From: Rhodocollybia butyracea
Lineage: Eukaryota > Basidiomycota > Agaricomycetes > Agaricales > Omphalotaceae
Length of the DNA: 64,000 bases
Reading direction: 5' to 3'
Assembly (NCBI GenBank): GCA_015501585.1
Contig: JADNRY010000149.1
Coordinates: forward strand, 1-64,000
The notes beneath the pieces are model-generated. The model had not been told where the DNA came from and ran no database searches. It saw nothing but the letters and a program-made list of their open reading frames with translations. Shown one piece after another: positions 604 to 13,700 of the stretch. Numbering within the stretch: the first letter of the stretch is position 1; each line of letters starts with the position of its first letter. The position numbers and the translations under genes are program-made.

Positions 604-639
604 CACTACGGGAAGAAAAAACAATTAATTTGATTGTCC
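604..639 (+). repeat. Left terminal inverted repeat
   Basis: Begins CACTACGGGAAG, continues through an A-rich tract and ends in AATTTGATTGTC. It is the reverse complement of 8256-8291 apart from one or two bases in the A-rich part. Confidence 0.88.
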
Positions 640-1135
640 AAAACACAATCTAAATGATTGTCTTGCACTCATATTGATTGTCTGAACCATTCATAATGAT
701 TGTCCAGTCTACTCAAAAAGATTGTCCTATACCTTTATATTGATTGTTCAGACCATTCTTATTGATTGTTTGAACCATTCTTATTGATTGTCTGAACCAA
801 TCCTAATGATTGTCTAAATCACTCTTAAAGGTTGTCTGAATGACTTTCAATGATTGACCTAACCTTTCAATATGATAGTCTGAACCACTCTATATAATGG
901 TTCTGAACCATCTAAAGGATTGTCAAAAACACTCCAAATGATGGTATGAAACACTCATATGGACTGTTCAGCACAGTCTAAATGATTGTTTTTGGAAATG
1001 GGTCACAGTGTCTTAAGACAATCATTAGGATTGTTCAGCAATCACAGTGAGTGGTTGGAACAATCATTTGAACTGTCTTGGACAATCATCTTGACTGTAT
1101 ACAACAATCACTTGGAGTGTCTTACACAATGGTTT
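632..1135. repeat. Left subterminal repeat array
   Basis: About 500 bp built from variants of ATGATTGTCT with short spacers such as GAACCATTC. The copies run mainly in one orientation up to about 1000 and mainly inverted (AGACAATCAT) after that. Arrays of this kind are the transposase-binding regions in CACTA elements; that role here is inferred. Confidence 0.8.
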
Positions 1136-1199
1136 TCAACTGCTTTTGAAAGGTCTTGCAACGTAATAAAGAGATATTTATAAATTACTACATGTCAAG

Positions 1200-2540
1200 C
1201 ACTACTACGTATCCCCAATTCCCTCTAAGCAAAGTTTACACCAAAATGCTTACCAGCGCAGCGAATATTTGACCTCAATCAAGTAACAATCAGTCAAAGA
1301 AAAAATCGGATATAAAACGACTTACTCGATGTTTTGGTTCCCTGTAGGTAGTGAAAATTTATGTTATTCTACGTACTACAGGTAGAAACAGCGATGTTGT
1401 CAGTGGTCAGACCCCAGACCACTAAATCAGTAAAGAAGAACCGTGGATGAGAAGCGCGAAGTACTTACTGCTGAACGAGCACTTGCGCAACAACGATTGT
1501 CGGTCAGACCTCAAAGGTGTAAATCAGTGGCAACGAAAGCGTGAGAAGCGCAACTTACGTCTGGGCTCACCGCGTGTTACTTGCCGTGGCATTGAGGCTG
1601 GATGTTGAGCTGGGGGACCAGGGGCGACTGTTGGGACTCGAGCGGCTGGCACTATGTCAAGACAATCCAGCCGCTAGTGAGTTCACCAGAGGAACAAAAG
1701 AGATGGGGGAGCAAGAGAAGGGAGAGGAAGAGGATCTAAAGTGGGCGGGCATGCGAGCAATGTTCCGACCGCGCAGCTGATGTCAACGGTGGGTCCCTTG
1801 CCGAACGGACGGTGGTGATGAAGGATATGTCGCGGTTAGTTAAAGCTGTAATGGAAAAGAGAGATACAGGGAAATCCCATACGGTCGATGCATCACACTA
1901 TAGTGGCTCGGCATTACAAAGAACAATTACGCTGGCCTAGGTACTTATGCCATGGATCGAGGGGATGACACCGAGCTGTGTTTGAGGGCTGCGGTCCTGT
2001 GCTGTCAACGCTTTATATGAATACGGATATTCCGTTCGGTTGTCGCGTAGAAGCTTGAGCAGAAGTGACGGTGACGTTCCGAGAAAGGTAGTCAGCGTAA
2101 TAATTTCCATGGCGTCTAAACAAAAAAACAGCTGAGCATTATGGCAAAATTTCTGGCTGCAAAGTTGGAGTCGTGTGATGAGACGGAGGAGATGAGTTCT
2201 ATCATAGCATTAGACAAAGTATTTCTGATATTAATACTTGCAGACGTACCTTTGATCAATGCCAACGCCGACAAATTCTGTAGTGCAAGTATCTCTAAAC
2301 CTTGTACTTTTTGGTTGTACGTGTATGTGAAGCACCACATGGACACTTGAATAATACTAAATATCCAACAATAACTTTAACAGGAGGCTTCGTCCAGGAA
2401 CAGCGTGATTATAGACAAGAGGACATGATCGTAGTTGAAGAAGAGCCCGTAGTTATGTTGTGACGTGGCAACGTTGAACATTGATGTGGCTGTGCTATTG
2501 CGCGGCCCGCGGCCCAGAGCGCGTAGCGTTAAGTCATACT
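1200..2540. other. Interior of the element with no assignable gene
   Basis: GC content is higher than in the flanks around 1540-1780. A weak direct repeat is visible at 1408-1470 and 1502-1560 (GGTCAGAC ... AAATCAGT ... GAGAAGCGC). Small open frames at 1541-1780 and 2141-2350 resemble no family I know. It may contain further captured fragments too decayed or intron-rich to recognise. Confidence 0.4.
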
Positions 2541-2544
2541 GTGG

Positions 2545-2705
2545 CCGACTCATGGGCTAACCATGATAAAGGAAGCTATTACTTCATGAATGCATTTTTT
2601 CGGTATCATCACTGCTCTCTGTGCTCTGAGCAGCGAAACGGGAGGTGTCAAAGGCGTCGAGATTGTTTGCAGCACAAAGGGCCGGTGTTCAAACGTTCAG
2701 GTGTC
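2545..2705 (+). pseudogene. Second, decayed copy of part of the captured uL5m fragment
   Basis: This stretch matches 5675-5850 at the nucleotide level. Shared landmarks in the same order are ATTACTTCATGAATGCAT, CTCTGAGCAGCGAA, the segment GTCGAGATTGTT and the segment TTCAGGTGTCCCT. In the better-kept copy those bases encode the part of mitochondrial ribosomal protein uL5 around VEIVRGKKQ. The copy here has several indels and no long reading frame, and similarity is lost after about 2705. Inferred: an internal duplication within the element, or a second capture of the same gene, older or less constrained than the right copy. Confidence 0.6.
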
Positions 2706-2983
2706 CCTTTAAAATTGAGTATTGCCCTTTTATTTCTGCTCTTCCGGGTCACTCCACATCAAATCGCAAAACGGCCCTTCATGTGGAATCTCCCGTGCTT
2801 GACTCGGCACGCGGATCTGATCAAGTGTTCTCATATCGAGACTGAGGCCCCCATGGATGCAAAGCATCATTCCATCGATGATAGCAGCAAGATTCAAGTA
2901 GTCAAAAATGCTGCAACATGCTTTTCAGACAGTTGTTGAGCCGTATTTTTGCTGGCATTTGTCATACAATCTGTATACCTGTG

Positions 2984-5387
<2,404 letters not shown>

Positions 5388-5689
5388 GTAGTGTCACCTT
5401 GTTGGGTCAAGTCACTTTGAGTATGAGGAGCATCGATATGGTTTCCAGGGAATAGTGACCTCTGTCTATGAAGTCACCCTGGATAGCAGAAGTTGTAGTC
5501 TTGTCATTCCATGCAAAAGCATGGTCTCTGGAACATTTCCTCCCTTCCTTAGCAGTTCAAGCAAATCCCAGAATTGACCTATTCCAAATACCGAAAAAAC
5601 GAGCCAGTGGGTGGCAAACAATTCGCGGAAATGGCTACAGAACCAAATACACCAGCTAATATTATCCGTGTGCAAATGCACATCATGCT

Positions 5690-6190
5690 ATAAGACGCCA
5701 TTACTTCATGAATGCATCTTCTCGGTGTCATCGCTACTTTCCGTGCTCTGAGCAGCGAAGCGGAGCTCTGGCAAAAGACGTCCAAGGGGTCGAGATTGTT
5801 CGCGGGAAAAAGCAGATCCATGGCTGGGTCTGTTCAGGTGTCCCTGTGGCTGCCAAAGTGACTCTCAAAGGCTCAGCAATGTACAACCTCATCGCATACC
5901 TTCCCGAATTCATTTTACCGCGTCTTCGTGAATTCCATGTCATTCTTATGGCGGGTCCAGTCAGTGGACCCAATGCCTATTCACCTGCGTTGAGCAAAGC
6001 AGTAAAACCTAGCGACATGACACCTACAGAAGCAATGAGCTACTGGTCTTAGATTGAGATAAATCAGGACATGTATCCTATGGTATGCATCTTCATTTTA
6101 TCACGAACGCAGTCAGTGTGGGTGTGCAGAAGAGGGCCAGAGCTTTGGTTAGTGGATTCCAGATCCCATTTCTACAGAAGAGCTGAGGGT
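5690..6190 (+). pseudogene. Captured mitochondrial ribosomal protein uL5 fragment
   Basis: The frame from about 5708 carries VEIVRGKKQI, GVPVAAKVTLKG, then FILPRLREFHVI and a Pro/Ser-rich stretch. After a stop at 6050-6052 the same gene continues with IEINQDMYPM and, after a frameshift, the parts around THFITNA-like, VQKRARALVSGFQ and PFLQKS. This order is that of mitochondrial large-subunit protein uL5 (MRPL7/L5 in fungi), which contacts 5S-equivalent and P-site regions of the mitoribosome. The N-terminal third is missing, and stop and frame errors rule out function. The fragment faces opposite to the Hsp70 and Pre4 pieces. Confidence 0.78.
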
Positions 6191-6489
6191 GGTGAGCTGA
6201 ATGCAGCGTCACATCGATTGTAGGGTATTAGAGAAATAATTACAATCTGATACCAATTAGGCAATCGCAAGAATTGGAAATTGTTACATTTGAAGCAACG
6301 CTAGAAATTATACATTATACAGGCCATACAGATGGATTTTACTGTGTTTGTGCTCCGTAACGTCTAATACTGTGAATGACCAGTTTGTCTCAACACTGCG
6401 AGACTCTGAGATCGCGACTCCATCTGCCGATATTTTGGCAATTTGATATATGCGTAGTAAGCAATAAAGAAGTCAAAATAAAAAATTGA

Positions 6490-6991
6490 CACACCTTGTT
6501 CAGACCTTGTGTGTCGCGGTAAAACAACGCCTGGATGTACTGGAAGTCAGACAAGTTGCCACCTGCACCAATAACAGTATTGGTTCCAACGGGGTGTAGA
6601 CACTGTATCATTGAAACAAGCAAGCAAGCCATATGAGGCTGGAAGTCGAAAAAGAAAAGGTTAGATATTCAGGAAGAGAAAAAAATGTTCTATATACACA
6701 CCCAAATTGTTGGCAGCCATCATCTGATATCAAGGACACTTGTGCCCATCACCTACGCACAGGGTTAGTCATTATCTTCTTCATCTGAGAAGCCACTCAC
6801 GGAGTATGCTAAACTCCTGCTGAAAACGCATCCACTTCTCCATTATATGTTCTCTGAGCAACTGGATACATGCCGGACACATCAAAGGTGTCCTTTCGCT
6901 GGGTAAGAATGGTGTCAGCAAGGACTGGAAGTGAGTAGTGACTCAGAATCAAATATACCAGGTGACCCCATTGCATAGGAAAATGGTCCAT
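6490..6991 (-). pseudogene. Captured proteasome beta-subunit (Pre4/beta7-type) fragment
   Basis: On the minus strand the start MDHFPMQWG resembles the N-terminus of fungal Pre4. It is followed by an intron-like GTATAT...CCAG gap, PVAQRT, a degenerate VMGTSVL and MAANNLG (normally M-A-A-D-N-L), and then, after another gap, HPVGTNTVIGAGG and LSDFQYIQ. These are the propeptide, mature N-terminal and central segments of the 20S core subunit. The gaps look like retained introns, which implies capture from DNA and not from mRNA. The C-terminal half is missing. Confidence 0.75.
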
Positions 6992-7344
6992 TGTAAGTTG
7001 AGGTCAAGAAGTGAGGAATGCCATAGATGCCCAGTCGTGATCCCATTACACTGTATATACTTACATTACAAATCACTCTGTACACAAGAAACATTATCAT
7101 TCAGTTCAATCTCTTTCACACATCTTTCCTCTTCATTCTTTACGTCTCTTTGCAACCCTTTCTTTCCGCACCTCTGGACACGACCACACAACAACTTCAG
7201 CAAACCGGGAATGACTATCAGTGATTTCGGCACATCAAATATCATTGGTAGCCATTATTACAAATTCAACCAGCTTTGCTGGTCAATGTTTCACGCATCA
7301 ACGCACCTTACCAGCTCAAAATACATTTTTGCAGGATCCACAGC

Positions 7345-7410
7345 ATGCCCTCTGTCAATTCCACCATTCAGTTTGGCCACAGGAAGGCTGTAACCATTTT
7401 AGCGGTTCAG
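7345..7410 (+). pseudogene. Possible captured first exon of 40S protein uS9 (S16)
   Basis: ATG CCC TCT starts a 22-codon frame reading MPSVNSTIQFGHRKAVTILAV, close in pattern to the uS9 N-terminus (S-V-x-T-F-G-x-K-K-T-A-T-A-V-A). It stops at CAG followed by GTTTAT, a plausible splice donor. A pyrimidine-rich leader lies upstream at 7090-7200. No downstream exon of the gene is recognised. The match is short, so this is a suggestion only. Confidence 0.4.
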
Positions 7411-7884
7411 TTTATCCTCGGTATATTTTGTTCCTTAATGTTGATTTCTTTTGAGTCTCGCAGGATTCTTGCTTCACTTGATCATGTATCCATCCACCTT
7501 ATCCACTCAGTATATATCTCTAGAGGACCCTTAGAATGTCCTCTTTCACTTTTGTATCTCAGTGTGAGCACAGATGGTCTGTAGCAGTCAGATGGGTTCA
7601 GTTTTATTTTGTTCAAATACTCTGTATTCCCATTTTTTCATTCCTGTTCAATTTCTGTTCTCTGGCTCCTTCATTTGAGACAGGAGTGTCTCAAATGAAG
7701 TTAATGTACTTTGTTCCCAGTACCATTCACATGCTCTACAAACATGCCTGTCAAATAGTGCAGTGGATTGTAAATATACCAACCAATATTATAGACTACA
7801 GTACTAATGGCCTCTTAGATCCTATTTTCACTAAGGAATAGATAGATTACTGTTAGTCTAGCCTGACATCAGTCAAATGGTTTC
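7411..7884. other. Element interior between captured fragments and right array
   Basis: T-rich sequence with no gene that I recognise. A short perfect inverted repeat, TCATTTGAGACAGGAGTGTCTCAAATGA, written here only as its arms TCATTTGAGACA and TGTCTCAAATGA, occurs around 7669-7697. Confidence 0.5.
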
Positions 7885-8255
7885 TTCCAAAATGATTGTC
7901 CGGAACAACTGCTGCACTCCAAGTGATTGGCTCCAAGAATAGGCACTCTAAACGACTGTCTTACTTTTGGACACTCTGAATGATTGTCTTAATTTTGGGC
8001 ACTCAAATGATTGTTTGCTCAAGACAATCATTTTGATTGTGCATGATAGTAGGCAATCCAAATGATTGTCTTAAATTGGGCACTCTAAATGATTGCTTGC
8101 TCAAGACAATCATTTTGATTGTCCTCACTAGCGGGCAATCCAAATGATTGTCTTAAATTGGGGGCATTCTAAATGATTGTCTTGAGCAGACAATCAAAAT
8201 GAGTGTTTGGCAAAAAAACATCTAAATGATTGTTTTTTCAATAAATGATTGTCTC
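7885..8255. repeat. Right subterminal repeat array
   Basis: Same motif family as the left array (AATGATTGTCTT and its inverse AAGACAATCATT), with local palindromes formed by adjacent inverted copies. Two near-identical sub-blocks containing CTCAAGACAATC occur around 8030 and 8100. This matches the architecture expected at the other end of the same element. Confidence 0.8.
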
Positions 8256-8291
8256 AGACAATCAAATTAATTGTTTTTCCTTCCCGTAGTG
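8256..8291 (-). repeat. Right terminal inverted repeat
   Basis: Inverted partner of 604-639, ending CCCGTAGTG. It is followed at once by CAAG, matching the CAAG before the left end. Confidence 0.88.
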
Positions 8292-8513
8292 CAAGATAGT
8301 AATCATAGGTCTGTAGGAAAGTCCCCCTTTACAGAGTACTGTGTAGTTGACTGTAATTCCTTCATAGTACAATATAGTTTCCCTTTGCATACATGTAGTG
8401 TGTCATAGTCAGTGTAGTATAGTGCATATCTACAATTATTCACCTACTATCAGTACCGTGTAGCCAACTTAGATATACTCATAATATTAATGCACATTCC
8501 ATATCACCAAATA
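8292..8513. other. Spacer between CACTA-like element and companion gene
   Basis: Starts with the right CAAG direct repeat. It is AT-rich with several TAGT-containing words, and no gene is seen. It could be subterminal sequence of the Plavaka-type element into which the CACTA-like element inserted, but no matching opposite end was found. Confidence 0.35.
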
Positions 8514-10587
8514 TTAACTGGCACTAGCGTCTGACTCGGTGTCACCAGTGCATGCCTCCATCTGAGCACGGAGCTCATCTTCAATGTTGCCAGAAATATG
8601 AGATGCGTCAACTTCACCCATAGGCTTTGGACATGTTTGATCCCTAATGTAAAATCCAGCATGAATGGCAATATAGAGGAGAAATTAGCCTTGTACCGCG
8701 CTTTATTGAACATTTGTTTCCAAATGTTTGTGGACACTACAGGGTTCATATCATCCCACTTGGCGAGGTCTTTGAGATAACCTTCATAGAACTTTCTATG
8801 CTCTTCCTCGCTGAATTTCTGGACCTTGATGCACTTTCCAGTTGCCCATTCTGTGAGAGTTGCTTGTACCTAGCTCAGGCTAGTAAGGTGAAATTATCAG
8901 GGCAGACACCATTCCCACTCACCATCGTGAACAGAGAAGCTAGTGTTTTCAGGGAAATAATCTTGAAGTATCCATCAAACACTGTACCCATACCATTTTT
9001 GAAAATATAACCCAAGAGTGTAACAATCGAAGGATGCTCCGCATAACCAATCCAATCCTTGTGGTCCTAGATTGGGAGTTAAGTGCTGACAATGGCAAGT
9101 ATGACATTGACAAACCTTGTATGCAAAAGCAGAGAAATTCCTAGCAGAATGAGTGTGATACAAATCCTTGTTATGTTTCTTGGCTTGCTTGCTGCCATCA
9201 CCGTCAAAGTGGTAGGTTGTTTCGACTTTGGCCTGGATCCATTTGTAAGTTTTGCCATGTATTCGACTTCCTCGTGCAGTGATCTATGGGAATATTAAGT
9301 CAAACAGAATACTTAGTCATTCATTGCAGCGCACCAGTTTAATTACCTGTTTGTCAGAAGCAAGATTGACCCTGGTGACTACACATGCTGCAGAAAAAGC
9401 CTTTTCTGCCCACTGGACATGTAAAGTTAGTCTGGGAAGAAATCCTTTCAAGAATTTGGATTGCCTGGAGAAGGAGACCTTCACCTTCAGCAGTATAGGC
9501 ACTAATTTTCGCACGTGTACCTGTTTTATAATCCGCATGAAATTGAAGTGTCAGAGATGGAGATGCAGCATCAACAGCATTTTGTATATTGATTACCAGC
9601 GGTGTAGGCACTGGTGCTGATGGTGTGGCAGCACTGGTGGGTGCTGATGGCGTGGCGGCGCTGGTGAGTGCTGATGATGTGGTGGCATTAATGGGAGATG
9701 TAGTGGGTTGGACTGTTGGAGTTGGTGGATGGCTTTGTGAGATAGCTGAGGAAGCGCTCCAACTGGCTGTAGTTGCTGTTGACAATGGAGTCAATGGGGT
9801 TCTAACATGCTGAAAAGCATTCCGTGACATAGTCTTGCAACCAGTGGGCTTCTTCTGTTTAATAAGGTTGAGAAACTGTGGCTGGGGAGCGGAAATACTG
9901 GGCAGAGGTGTTGCCTGGAACAGCTGTTAGAACAAGAACATAATGACTATTAATATGTACCGTAGAAGGGAACTGAATCACCTTGTAAGTCACTTCTTTG
10001 CTCTCATACTCGTTGCCATCACTCTCGTCTACAGCAGTATACTTATCCTTGCCCTTCTCCAGTCTCGATTCTAGTAATTGTAATAGGTAGTGCACCATAA
10101 ACATAGCAATAACTATAAAAAACATATGTGTTTTGCTGAGTTGTTTCAGTAGCTGGGCATTTGTTTCCTTCAATCTTGAAAGTTCCTCACTTTCTTCGGA
10201 CTGTTCCACTAAAACAGGCTTAGTTATTTCCATTGAAAACATAATACTTTAATACATACCTTCATCACTTCTTTGCTTCTCAAGTCAACGAGCCCTCTGA
10301 TGTCTGGGATTTTCATCATTATGTGGCCGCCGGGGTTGGGGTTTCTTTGCAGGAGGTTGGCTGTCTTGCATGCTTCCTTTGTTGTTTTCTTCATCAAATT
10401 CTTTGTCTCCATCTGGTATATAAAAGGATTATTTTGATTTGTTAGAGGAGCAAAGCATACCTTTCTGTTTTCCAAGCCTTTGGTGCTTCAATGAAGGTTG
10501 ATGGTCACTTTCTTGCTCCATATCATCATACTGGTTTGGCTCGCCATTATTGTCAAGGTCAGATAAGTTTTGCACACTGTTAGGCAT
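8514..10587 (-). CDS. Uncharacterised multi-exon gene divergent from the Plavaka transposase
   Basis: Not a family I can name. From ATG at 10585-10587 the exons encode a hydrophilic acidic N-terminus, a coiled-coil-like part (SEELSRLKETNAQLLKQL), a Pro/Ser/Thr/Ala-rich middle with SAATPSAPT-type repeats, and a globular C-terminal half. Landmarks of that half are TYKWIQAKVETTYHFDGDG, HTHSARNFSAFAYKDHKDWI, HPSIVTLLGYIFKNG, EWATGKCIKVQKFSEEEH and MNPVVSTNIWKQMF, ending in an acidic tail before TAA at 8514-8516. Good GT...AG gaps separate these blocks (for example 9080-9120 and 8890-8930). One in-frame TGA follows the second exon (reading HQRAR-stop-LEKQRSDE), so it is either mis-split there or decaying. 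Its position back to back with the transposase suggests an accessory gene of the same element; this is inference. Confidence 0.5.
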
Positions 10588-10772: not shown

Positions 10773-13700
10773 ATGGCAGGAGAATTCCACTGCAAGTATG
10801 GCTACAAAGTGAGTTTTTCAACTTGGAAAGGTCTATGGTCACACATAAGCCAAACATTACTCTGTAAAGAGAGAGAAGAGGCTCAGATCCATGAAGCTAT
10901 GTCTGCGGAGCAGCCATCACTATCAATTCCATTGCAGGCTTCACCACAGTTTCAAAACAAGCCACTTCCTGACAACATAGATCCTCATGCCAGCTTCAGC
11001 AAACCTACAGATATTCAGCCTGGACCAGAACAAGGAAGCAAATGACTGTACATTGAGGATAGCGAGGATGACACCATTAATGATCCTATATCTACATATG
11101 ATCCATGTTATCGCTATATTCAACAATACCCCCGTCCTGCAGGTTCTCCGATATGTCCATGTGAACTTCAGTTTGAGCGATATTGAAATGCACAGAAAGT
11201 GGAGGGGTTAGAACCTTGGTTTCCATTCCAAAGTGAAGATGAGTGGGAGCTTGCGCGCTGGTTAATGGAGTCTGGTGCAAGCCAGGGGAAAATTGACCGG
11301 TTCTTAAAGCTTAACAAGGTGCATATTCAATACAACAGATCTGATGATAAGACTTAAACCAGATATCAGATACAAAATGATGTGAAACCTTCTTTCCAAA
11401 CCAAATGTGCATTCTTGCAGTACATTGACTCACTTCCACAAGGTCCAGAGTTCACGTGCACCCCTATGAAGGTCATTGGAGATCTTAAAGATGCAGATAG
11501 CAACTTTTGGACAGAGACACTTGAGCTATGGCATCAGGATCCATTAGACTGTGTTGCAGAAATCCTTGGCAACCCGCTGTTTGAGAACCATCAGACATAT
11601 TGCCCACAGCATGTCTTTCAGCAGCAGCAGCAAGATGGCTCACCATTCAACCAGGAATATAACGAGATGTGGACAGCAGACTGGTGGTGGGAGACCCAGG
11701 TAAATTTCCAGGATATGATGCGCAGACTGTTGAAGCTCACCAGAGATATAGGACAAGCTTCCAGACCATGTGACAATTGCACCAATTATCCTAGCATCAG
11801 ATGAGACTCAGCTCTCAAATTTTAGTGGTGACAAGAAAGCATGGCCTGTGTACTTGACTGTTGGCAATGTTGCAAAGGCAGAGAGGAGGAAACCATCTTC
11901 ACGCGCTTGGGTTCTCTTAGGTTATATACCTGTTTCAAAGCTTGAATGCTACTCAGAAGAGAAACAATCTGATGCGGGATGTCAGCTTTTTCATGACTGC
12001 ATGAGAAAGATGCCCAAGCCACTGATTAAAAAAGAACTGAATCCCACAGAAATGGCATGTGCAGATGGTTTCCTGCGCAGTTTTCATGCAATATTGGCCG
12101 CATACATTGCTGACTATCCAGAACAGTGTTGCATTGCATGTTGTAGGGAGAACAGCTGTCCAAAATGTATAGTTCAACCAAAAGAGCGAGGAGATCCTGG
12201 ACCGTTGAACTCTGTGTACTGCAATCCAGATGTAGTCATAAAAGCGATTGCCCCGAAATCCCAAGGGTTGAGACCCGCTGAATTCAAGAATCAGAATCTT
12301 TGCCCTGTTATCCCATTCTGGCAGAACTGACCTCTCTGTAACATCTTTGAATGCATCACCCCTGACCTCCTTCACCAATTGCAGAAAGGTGTTTTCTCTG
12401 ACCATGTATTGTCCTGGGCAAAACAATCTATCAAGGATGGTAAGCAGGAGATTGATGTATGATATCAAACAATGTCACCTCATCCAACACTGCATCACTT
12501 CAAGAAAGGCATCTCCGGAGTTTCTCAATGGACTGGGGGAGAGTACCGCTCCATGGCCAAAGTGTTTTTGGTACAATTGCAGACGCTGCGTAACCAGGAG
12601 TCATACGTGCGGTCAGCTTTGTTGATCTAGGGATTTGTGAACACTTTAACATCAGCAAAGTGCATAATGTGAAGCATTATGTCGAAGCAATATGCTCACG
12701 GGGCACCACAGATAACTTCAATTCTGAAATATCAGAGCGGCTTCACATTGACCTCGCCAAAGCTGGATACCGCGCATCAAATAAGCAGAATTACATGGTA
12801 CAGATGAAAATCTGGTTGCAGCATCAAGAGGCCATACAGAGATTTGCTGTGTATCTTGAATGGGCCGTAAAAGACTATGTTGCTCAATCTATGGATGATA
12901 ACAAGGAAGAGCAGGAGCAGGAGCAGGAGCAGGAGGAGATGGATATTGATGAACTGCCTGTGGATGCAACAGACAATAATGCGATGGACACCAACAATAA
13001 TGATAAGACAACTTATCATGTAGCAAAGAAACCAGCTATGCATGTGACAATTAGCTCGATCATCAAATATTTTAACGCCAACTGGTTCCTCTGGTACCTC
13101 AATGACTTCCTTCATAAGAACTCCTTCATTACCAACCCTTACAACTCTGGTCTGAACGAAAATACCATCATTCCAGTCTACAAACAAGCTTGACTTCATC
13201 TCCCTCCTTTGCCAGAAGCAGCCTCAGAAAATTGTGTGGACATTGTTCACGCAACAAAAGCAGAGCCTGAGCGTCTCACAGTCAATGGTATAAAGGCAGC
13301 TGTACTAGCCAAAACAAGTACAGTGCTTGTCTGTATGGCTGAAAATGACCCTACAAAAGGGCCTTTGCAGGGTGCATGTTTCTCATGTCTAATTCAACTT
13401 TCCACTGATATCCGCTACATAGGCCTCCAGGTTGCTCGAGTATTTGTCATCTTCCAGCTTCCAGCAGCTATACTTCCAAATTCTGACCCGCTGGTCTTTC
13501 TTCATCTTTTCAAGCCGTTCAGTAAACCGGTTTTGGATCTCCATCTATTCAATATTTCATATGCTTACCAACAGCGATACAAACAAGGCATTGTTCTACC
13601 TCTTTCATGAATTGTTCAAACCTGCCATCTCACACCAAAGTTTGGTCCAGTTGCAAACCAATGTTGGACCAGTACCACTGTTCTTGACAACGCGCCATCC

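Follow-up and report, generated by a model that had tools for sequence, protein, structure and literature searches.

By what routes can a cut-and-paste transposon come to carry pieces of host genes? We addressed this question at one locus of the mushroom Rhodocollybia butyracea (Agaricales), in a 64,000-nt stretch of DNA that we call the window (contig C438 of a 95.6-Mb genome). Positions are given in window numbering, and other loci are designated by C-numbers. An element of 7,688 bp occupies window positions 604-8291; its inverted ends, CACTACGGG...CCCGTAGTG, are 42 bp long, and the 4-bp sequence CAAG is duplicated at the target. Very probably it is a DNA transposon of the non-autonomous, gene-capturing kind, with inverted repeats, termini of CACTA type and 4-bp duplications, and in it a block of genomic DNA lies together with a patch resembling complementary DNA (cDNA) of an SSB-type Hsp70 gene. 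A first-pass annotation had described inverted ends enclosing pieces of Ssb-type Hsp70 (minus strand), mitochondrial uL5 (plus strand, twice in part) and proteasome Pre4 (minus strand), and all of these were confirmed; support was likewise found for the general idea of a cut-and-paste element that has inverted ends and captures genes. It had further proposed a possible uS9 piece, which did not hold: window 7252-7581 gave no Pfam match, and the three matches to PF00380 (E up to 10) lie on C1049 and C532, none in an element copy.

Three of the four captured genes are neighbors at one locus

The search for intact parent genes led to two sources, the first of which is C494:727269-730177. This locus, whose genes were named through Pfam and PDB matches, holds a PP2A-type phosphatase (minus strand), uL5m (plus strand) and proteasome Pre4 (minus strand), and its intact uL5 is 100% identical to an annotated R. 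butyracea gene. Window segments 2738-3009, 5387-5579, 5580-6532 and 6519-7015 align to it in this order with 84-98% identity. They represent, respectively, phosphatase piece 1 (minus strand; C494:727269-727540, 91%), phosphatase piece 2, in which part of an intron is kept (minus strand; C494:727544-727763, 90% and 98% in two parts), a mitochondrial uL5 piece with premature stops (plus strand; C494:728273-729277, 85%) and a Pre4 piece with a retained intron (minus strand; C494:729647-730177, 84%). The phosphatase, present in two pieces, is new with respect to the first-pass annotation. Neither CACTACGGG nor CCCGTAGTG occurs in 5,009 bp of the C494 parent locus.

Because the phosphatase, uL5 and Pre4 genes stand in order at one locus, the simplest reading of these alignments is that this cargo stems from a single capture of about 2.9 kb, now with internal gaps, rather than from several captures. 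The gaps appear to have arisen afterwards by deletion; at the uL5/Pre4 join there is an 8-base repeat of the form CAACRCCT. One intron of the block is kept and one is cut inexactly, and the retained Pre4 intron together with the partly retained phosphatase intron indicates that the block was copied from DNA. The first-pass annotation had seen several unrelated genes captured as DNA, and had named fragments lying in order at one locus without the terminal repeats as evidence against its proposal. This is largely what we found for three of the four genes; capture at the DNA level agrees with the C494 block, where intron sequence is kept, and does not suit the intron-free Hsp70.

Pfam searches took in 12 of the 69 listed window open reading frames (ORFs). 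A metallophosphatase domain was found in one ORF and Hsp70 in four, all above the curated cut-offs. Ribosomal L5 was detected in one ORF below its cut-off (24.8 vs 27.8 bits), and aligning the DNA of this piece with the intact gene confirmed its identity. Two ORFs of the Pre4 region had no Pfam match, and Pre4 was confirmed by DNA alignment to C494. The gene fragments of the window are partial and, in the ORFs seen, interrupted by stops or frameshifts, and we propose no function for them at the protein level.

A short second uL5m piece (2562-2708, plus strand) aligns to C494:728386-728560, with 90% and 79% identity in two parts. It recurs with near-identical limits at C462, and nearly the same stretch is also present in C567/C1335; the recurrence at C462 suggests a separate uptake. 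The uL5 sequence C494:728135-728958 is found at C750, C368, C432, C473, C537 and C619, where it extends into the part lost from the window copy, and the examined stretches of these six loci have no phosphatase, Hsp70 or Pre4 match. Relative to C494, the window, C750 and C368 have 33 changes in common over 672 columns (7 transversions and 9 CpG transitions among them), as well as two premature stops. These shared changes and stops favor a history of uL5, as read from the alignments, in which one capture was followed by diversification.

Diverged uL5-Pre4 stretches were also observed at C25:73214-74599 and C558:58826-59647, both ending at C494 position 730357, which may mark where the original capture ended on the right. 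A second Pre4-like locus (C716:94070-95217 and C743:41324-42461, on contigs that are probably allelic) is 76-77% identical to C494; we considered it as the source of the Pre4 piece and rejected it, the captured piece being nearest to C494.

All four parental introns are absent from the Hsp70 patch

The second kind of cargo, an SSB-type Hsp70 patch on the minus strand, separates the two phosphatase pieces. Its first part, 3006-3821, corresponds to the 3' half of the captured coding sequence, and its second part to 5066-5380. The two are split by a nested 1.24-kb insertion resembling a solo long terminal repeat (3822-5065, TG...CA if read from 3821), which has ACGT(T) on both sides, many genomic copies at 82-85% identity and a counterpart in part at C723. 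The parents, on C69 and C1361, are 98.7% alike and probably allelic, and SSB1 is the nearest solved structure to the parent protein.

The Hsp70 piece comprises about 1.1 kb of coding sequence, from which all four GT..AG parental introns (59, 59, 50 and 53 bp) are absent. Aligned with the spliced parent it scored 1895, vs 1784.5 with the unspliced one, and the best of 200 controls, in which all four removals were shifted by 4-60 bases, reached 1824. Retaining a single intron lowered the score to 1882, 1860, 1864.5 and 1863 for introns 1 to 4, respectively; therefore each of the losses is supported, with the least support for that of intron 1. Long flanks lie on either side of junctions 3 and 4, and junction 2 adjoins a 16-base deletion. 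On this evidence the patch looks like a derivative of spliced SSB mRNA or of its cDNA.

The point of insertion was also informative. The phosphatase sequence there reads GCCT-CGT-AGTAG, in which GCCT is a 4-bp microhomology with Hsp70 and CGT (3 bp) has been lost. Neither a target duplication nor poly(A) is present at this point. These are not the marks of target-primed retroposition, by which a processed pseudogene arises: the introns are absent, but so are poly(A) and duplication. Judged by its sequence, the phosphatase/Hsp70 junction would rather be the expected trace of end-joining with a cDNA filler. The same junction and the adjoining splice point recur in C723 and in C567/C1335 (99.4% alike over 7 kb and counted as one), and C723 also shows splice junction 3.

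The element has moved with its cargo

The left terminal inverted repeat (604-645, plus strand) starts with CACTACGGGAAG and the right one (8250-8291, minus strand) ends with CCCGTAGTG; the inverted arms 603-645 and 8250-8292, of 43 nt including one flanking base pair, are 91% complementary. Arrays of ATGATTGTCT-like repeats lie inside each element end, the left one at 646-1135 with a spacing of about 22 bp. Subterminal repeats of this kind are typical of CACTA/EnSpm elements. Two modules are common to other copies, a 5' module (604-2531, 80-95% identity in pieces) and a 3' module (7040-8291, about 84-96% over long alignments). Three direct repeats with a 27-bp spacing lie outside the element at 9614-9700.

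A degenerate 35-base pattern of the end has 112 matches in the genome (49 forward, 63 reverse), and the same pattern read backwards, used as a control, has none. From the 100 of 112 ends listed, 23 facing pairs no more than 25 kb apart could be formed, the window pair included, with lengths from 6.7 to 17.0 kb. The two copies of CAAG lie at 600-603 and 8292-8295. When the window flanks are joined with a single CAAG, they align ungapped to C201:45519-46318, over 800 of 800 bases and with 99% identity, identifying this stretch as an empty site. The first-pass annotation had named ends found only once and the lack of an empty site as results that would speak against it; the genome shows the opposite on both counts.

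Decayed remains of a Plavaka transposase lie outside the element, at window 11394-12417, and have a counterpart at equal distance in C201; C201 therefore looks like the other haplotype, with the window insertion apparently polymorphic. For the C750 element, the joined flanks were contiguous across the join in nine retroelement copies out of 40 scored (five at 98-100%, four at 84-85%). Both checked empty sites, those of the window and of C750, show a 4-bp duplication, and an exact 4-bp duplication accompanies three of six complete elements (window, CAAG; C750, AAAC; C1316, AACA). The element has moved carrying its cargo, recently enough for a matching stretch to be still without it.

The same ends also enclose other cargo, as the first-pass annotation had suggested looking for. 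C619:37929-44909 has a different, chimeric cargo, annotated as gene model P0054, whose parts match separate places, and the interior of C1316 matches C461 at 74% as well as several other loci. Different cargo between the same ends is therefore supported in at least one further element. Copia-like retroelements, so labeled from their ORFs, lie inside sister copies. At C750, positions 7200-7955, with the matching parts of C368, C432 and C619, comprise a low-complexity tract, a copia-like retroelement and segments rearranged between copies.

Family assignment

To which family does the element belong? According to Kojima 2025 (PMC12730594), EnSpm elements have CAC..GTG termini and 3-bp duplications, and Plavaka elements have TGT or CATCA termini and 2-3 bp. 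The termini of the window element, CACTA...TAGTG, agree with the CACTA/EnSpm ends; the duplication at the two checked empty sites is of 4 bp. We did not file the element as CACTA/EnSpm because the duplication is 4 bp rather than 3 and the listed end pairs yielded no transposase, so the label CACTA-like given in the first-pass annotation stands for the termini and falls short in these two other respects. Plavaka membership was rejected, as termini and duplication differ from TGT..ACA or CATCA..TGATG and 2-3 bp and the listed pairs hold no Plavaka match, and hAT membership likewise, as hAT elements have 8-bp duplications. The element does show three features of Pack-TYPE elements: inverted repeats with a target duplication, internal host-gene fragments with intact parents elsewhere, and mobilized copies at several sites. 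By analogy, it would work like a plant Pack-TYPE element.

A source of transposase was sought in several ways. The 12 window ORFs scanned contain no transposase family, and the genome-wide searches for Transposase_21 and Plavaka gave no match at 604-8291, where these were the transposase types sought. The large ORFs at C368 were considered as the family transposase and rejected; they belong to a separate nested element, of which C750, C432 and the large C619 element have no copy. This nested transposon is of 4.2 kb (element coordinates 6353-10570), with ends TGGCGGTGGGC, a 7-bp duplication, CTGTAAA, and two large ORFs, neither of which has a Pfam family above cut-off; the second ORF has 53 relatives in a protein search, the named ones being from mushrooms. 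The ORFs of C619:37929-44909 were rejected as an autonomous partner, being the chimeric cargo annotated as P0054.

A proposed history and its alternatives

We propose the following course of events. A genomic block would have been taken up during gap or break repair inside the element, by template switching, and parts of it then deleted. Reverse-transcribed Hsp70 mRNA would have served as filler in the joining of a break inside the element. The patched element would then have transposed as one unit, moved through its ends by a transposase encoded elsewhere, and its pieces would have decayed as pseudogenes. More tentatively, it is possible that the elements form a lineage not described before, marked by 4-bp duplications together with CACTA-type ends and made up of break-repair mosaics from genomic DNA and reverse-transcribed mRNA that spread as units.

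Several observations weigh against this proposal. No transposase was found: within the 23 end pairs there are 0 of 22 Transposase_21 (PF02992) matches and 0 of 138 Plavaka matches. The duplication is of 5 bp at C432 and 2 bp at C368, and the C619 element has no exact match. Concerning the introns, the loss of intron 1 is the least well supported, at 13 score units; upstream of Hsp70 junctions 1 and 2 there are only about 8 exon bases each; for introns 1 and 3 a single removal can be shifted by 1 base with no change in score, and for introns 2 and 4 a shift by 3 bases lowers it by only 5 units. The exactness of the losses therefore rests on the best score plus GT..AG. The Hsp70 piece is also gapped inside exons. 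The uL5 changes common to the window, C750 and C368 may in part reflect change in C494 or parallel CpG decay, given the proportion of CpG transitions. Finally, the reverse transcriptase and the break behind the Hsp70 patch are both inferred.

The order of events might also have been different, in that an Hsp70 processed pseudogene first entered a host pseudogene, a duplicate of phosphatase-uL5-Pre4, and the composite was captured by the element only once complete. Either order yields the same sequence, the phosphatase/Hsp70 junction is identical at the three other places that hold it, and in the examined stretches an element end is present only at C567 (the right one), with none at C723 and C1335. 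However, the copies at C567, C1335 and C723, which are truncated or scattered, all carry 5'-module sequence of the element; no other composite was found among the genome matches to the Hsp70 and C494-block sequences; and a processed pseudogene is at odds with a patch lacking poly(A) and target duplication. We consider this order of events unlikely.

It appears quite improbable that an ordinary CACTA/EnSpm element took up several unrelated genes in separate events, each as genomic DNA. This view would account for the CACTA termini, the subterminal repeats and the kept Pre4 intron, but not for three genes in order from one locus, for an Hsp70 piece without any of its four introns, or for duplications of 4 rather than 3 bp at the two checked sites, and the listed end pairs hold no Transposase_21 match.

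Could the four Hsp70 introns have been deleted by chance after capture as DNA? The element does contain other internal deletions, some of them within Hsp70 exons, and shifting a single removal by 1-3 bases leaves the score the same or nearly so. Yet all four losses match GT..AG introns, the shifted controls never reached the spliced score, and the C494 block has kept one intron and had the other cut inexactly, which makes chance deletion very hard to believe. An assembly chimera, to which the partly short contigs might point, is the least credible of all, as the junctions are common to other copies and C201 has the flanks joined with no scar.

Relation to known systems

Plant Pack-CACTA elements (PMC8903248) provide the nearest model; they are likewise non-autonomous, with CACTA ends and coding fragments that can come from more than one locus; the window element differs in being fungal, in its 4-bp duplication and in its patch resembling spliced cDNA. 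In fungi, the first report of transduplication concerned a histone H3-like gene of Pyrenophora tritici-repentis (PMC3538342), a host gene captured between inverted repeats as here. That case is a hAT element of an ascomycete with one histone-like gene and known copies that are likely autonomous. In Pseudocercospora fijiensis and relatives, Dhillon and colleagues (PMC6710886) described hAT elements containing histone H3 exon-exon junctions, so that, for hAT elements, a fungal DNA transposon with a captured spliced transcript has been published before. As in our case, an intronless housekeeping transcript or retrocopy was captured by a fungal DNA transposon and then amplified, but those elements have an 8-bp duplication, a hAT domain and one gene, whereas the window element combines CACTA-type ends with a genomic block and cDNA.

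EnSpm, Plavaka and other transposons carry TET/JBP genes in basidiomycetes (PMC12730594), so the first-pass statement that gene-capturing cut-and-paste elements are rarely described in basidiomycetes was too strong. Like the window element, these are DNA transposons that have captured genes, here in mushrooms and rusts and with CAC..GTG termini in EnSpm; they differ from it in encoding a TET/JBP dioxygenase. For the filler step, a parallel exists in mouse zygotes, where spliced mRNA sequence is captured at double-strand breaks by repair mediated by reverse-transcription products (PMC4516963); there the breaks were induced and no transposon cargo was involved. Routes already proposed for gene acquisition are gap filling and template switching during replication (PMC8277862) and the fusion of neighboring insertions (PMC8903248). 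Our literature search returned no fungal CACTA gene-capture element, no cDNA-bearing Pack element and nothing useful on 4-bp duplications of Chapaev, and the available text of PMC13317346 and PMC8978399 holds nothing on fungal gene capture or cDNA patches. As far as these searches show, the novelty lies in a mushroom element whose CACTA-type ends go with 4-bp duplications, and in the presence of a genomic block beside a cDNA-like patch in one element.

There is no settled view on how host genes get into cut-and-paste transposons, and here the element, its parents, junctions, copies and empty site are all available in one genome, so that the steps can be put in order. With this element, what had been found for spliced H3 in hAT elements of ascomycetes now reaches a mushroom and CACTA-type ends, and break repair emerges as a possible way for RNA-derived sequence to get into a DNA transposon.

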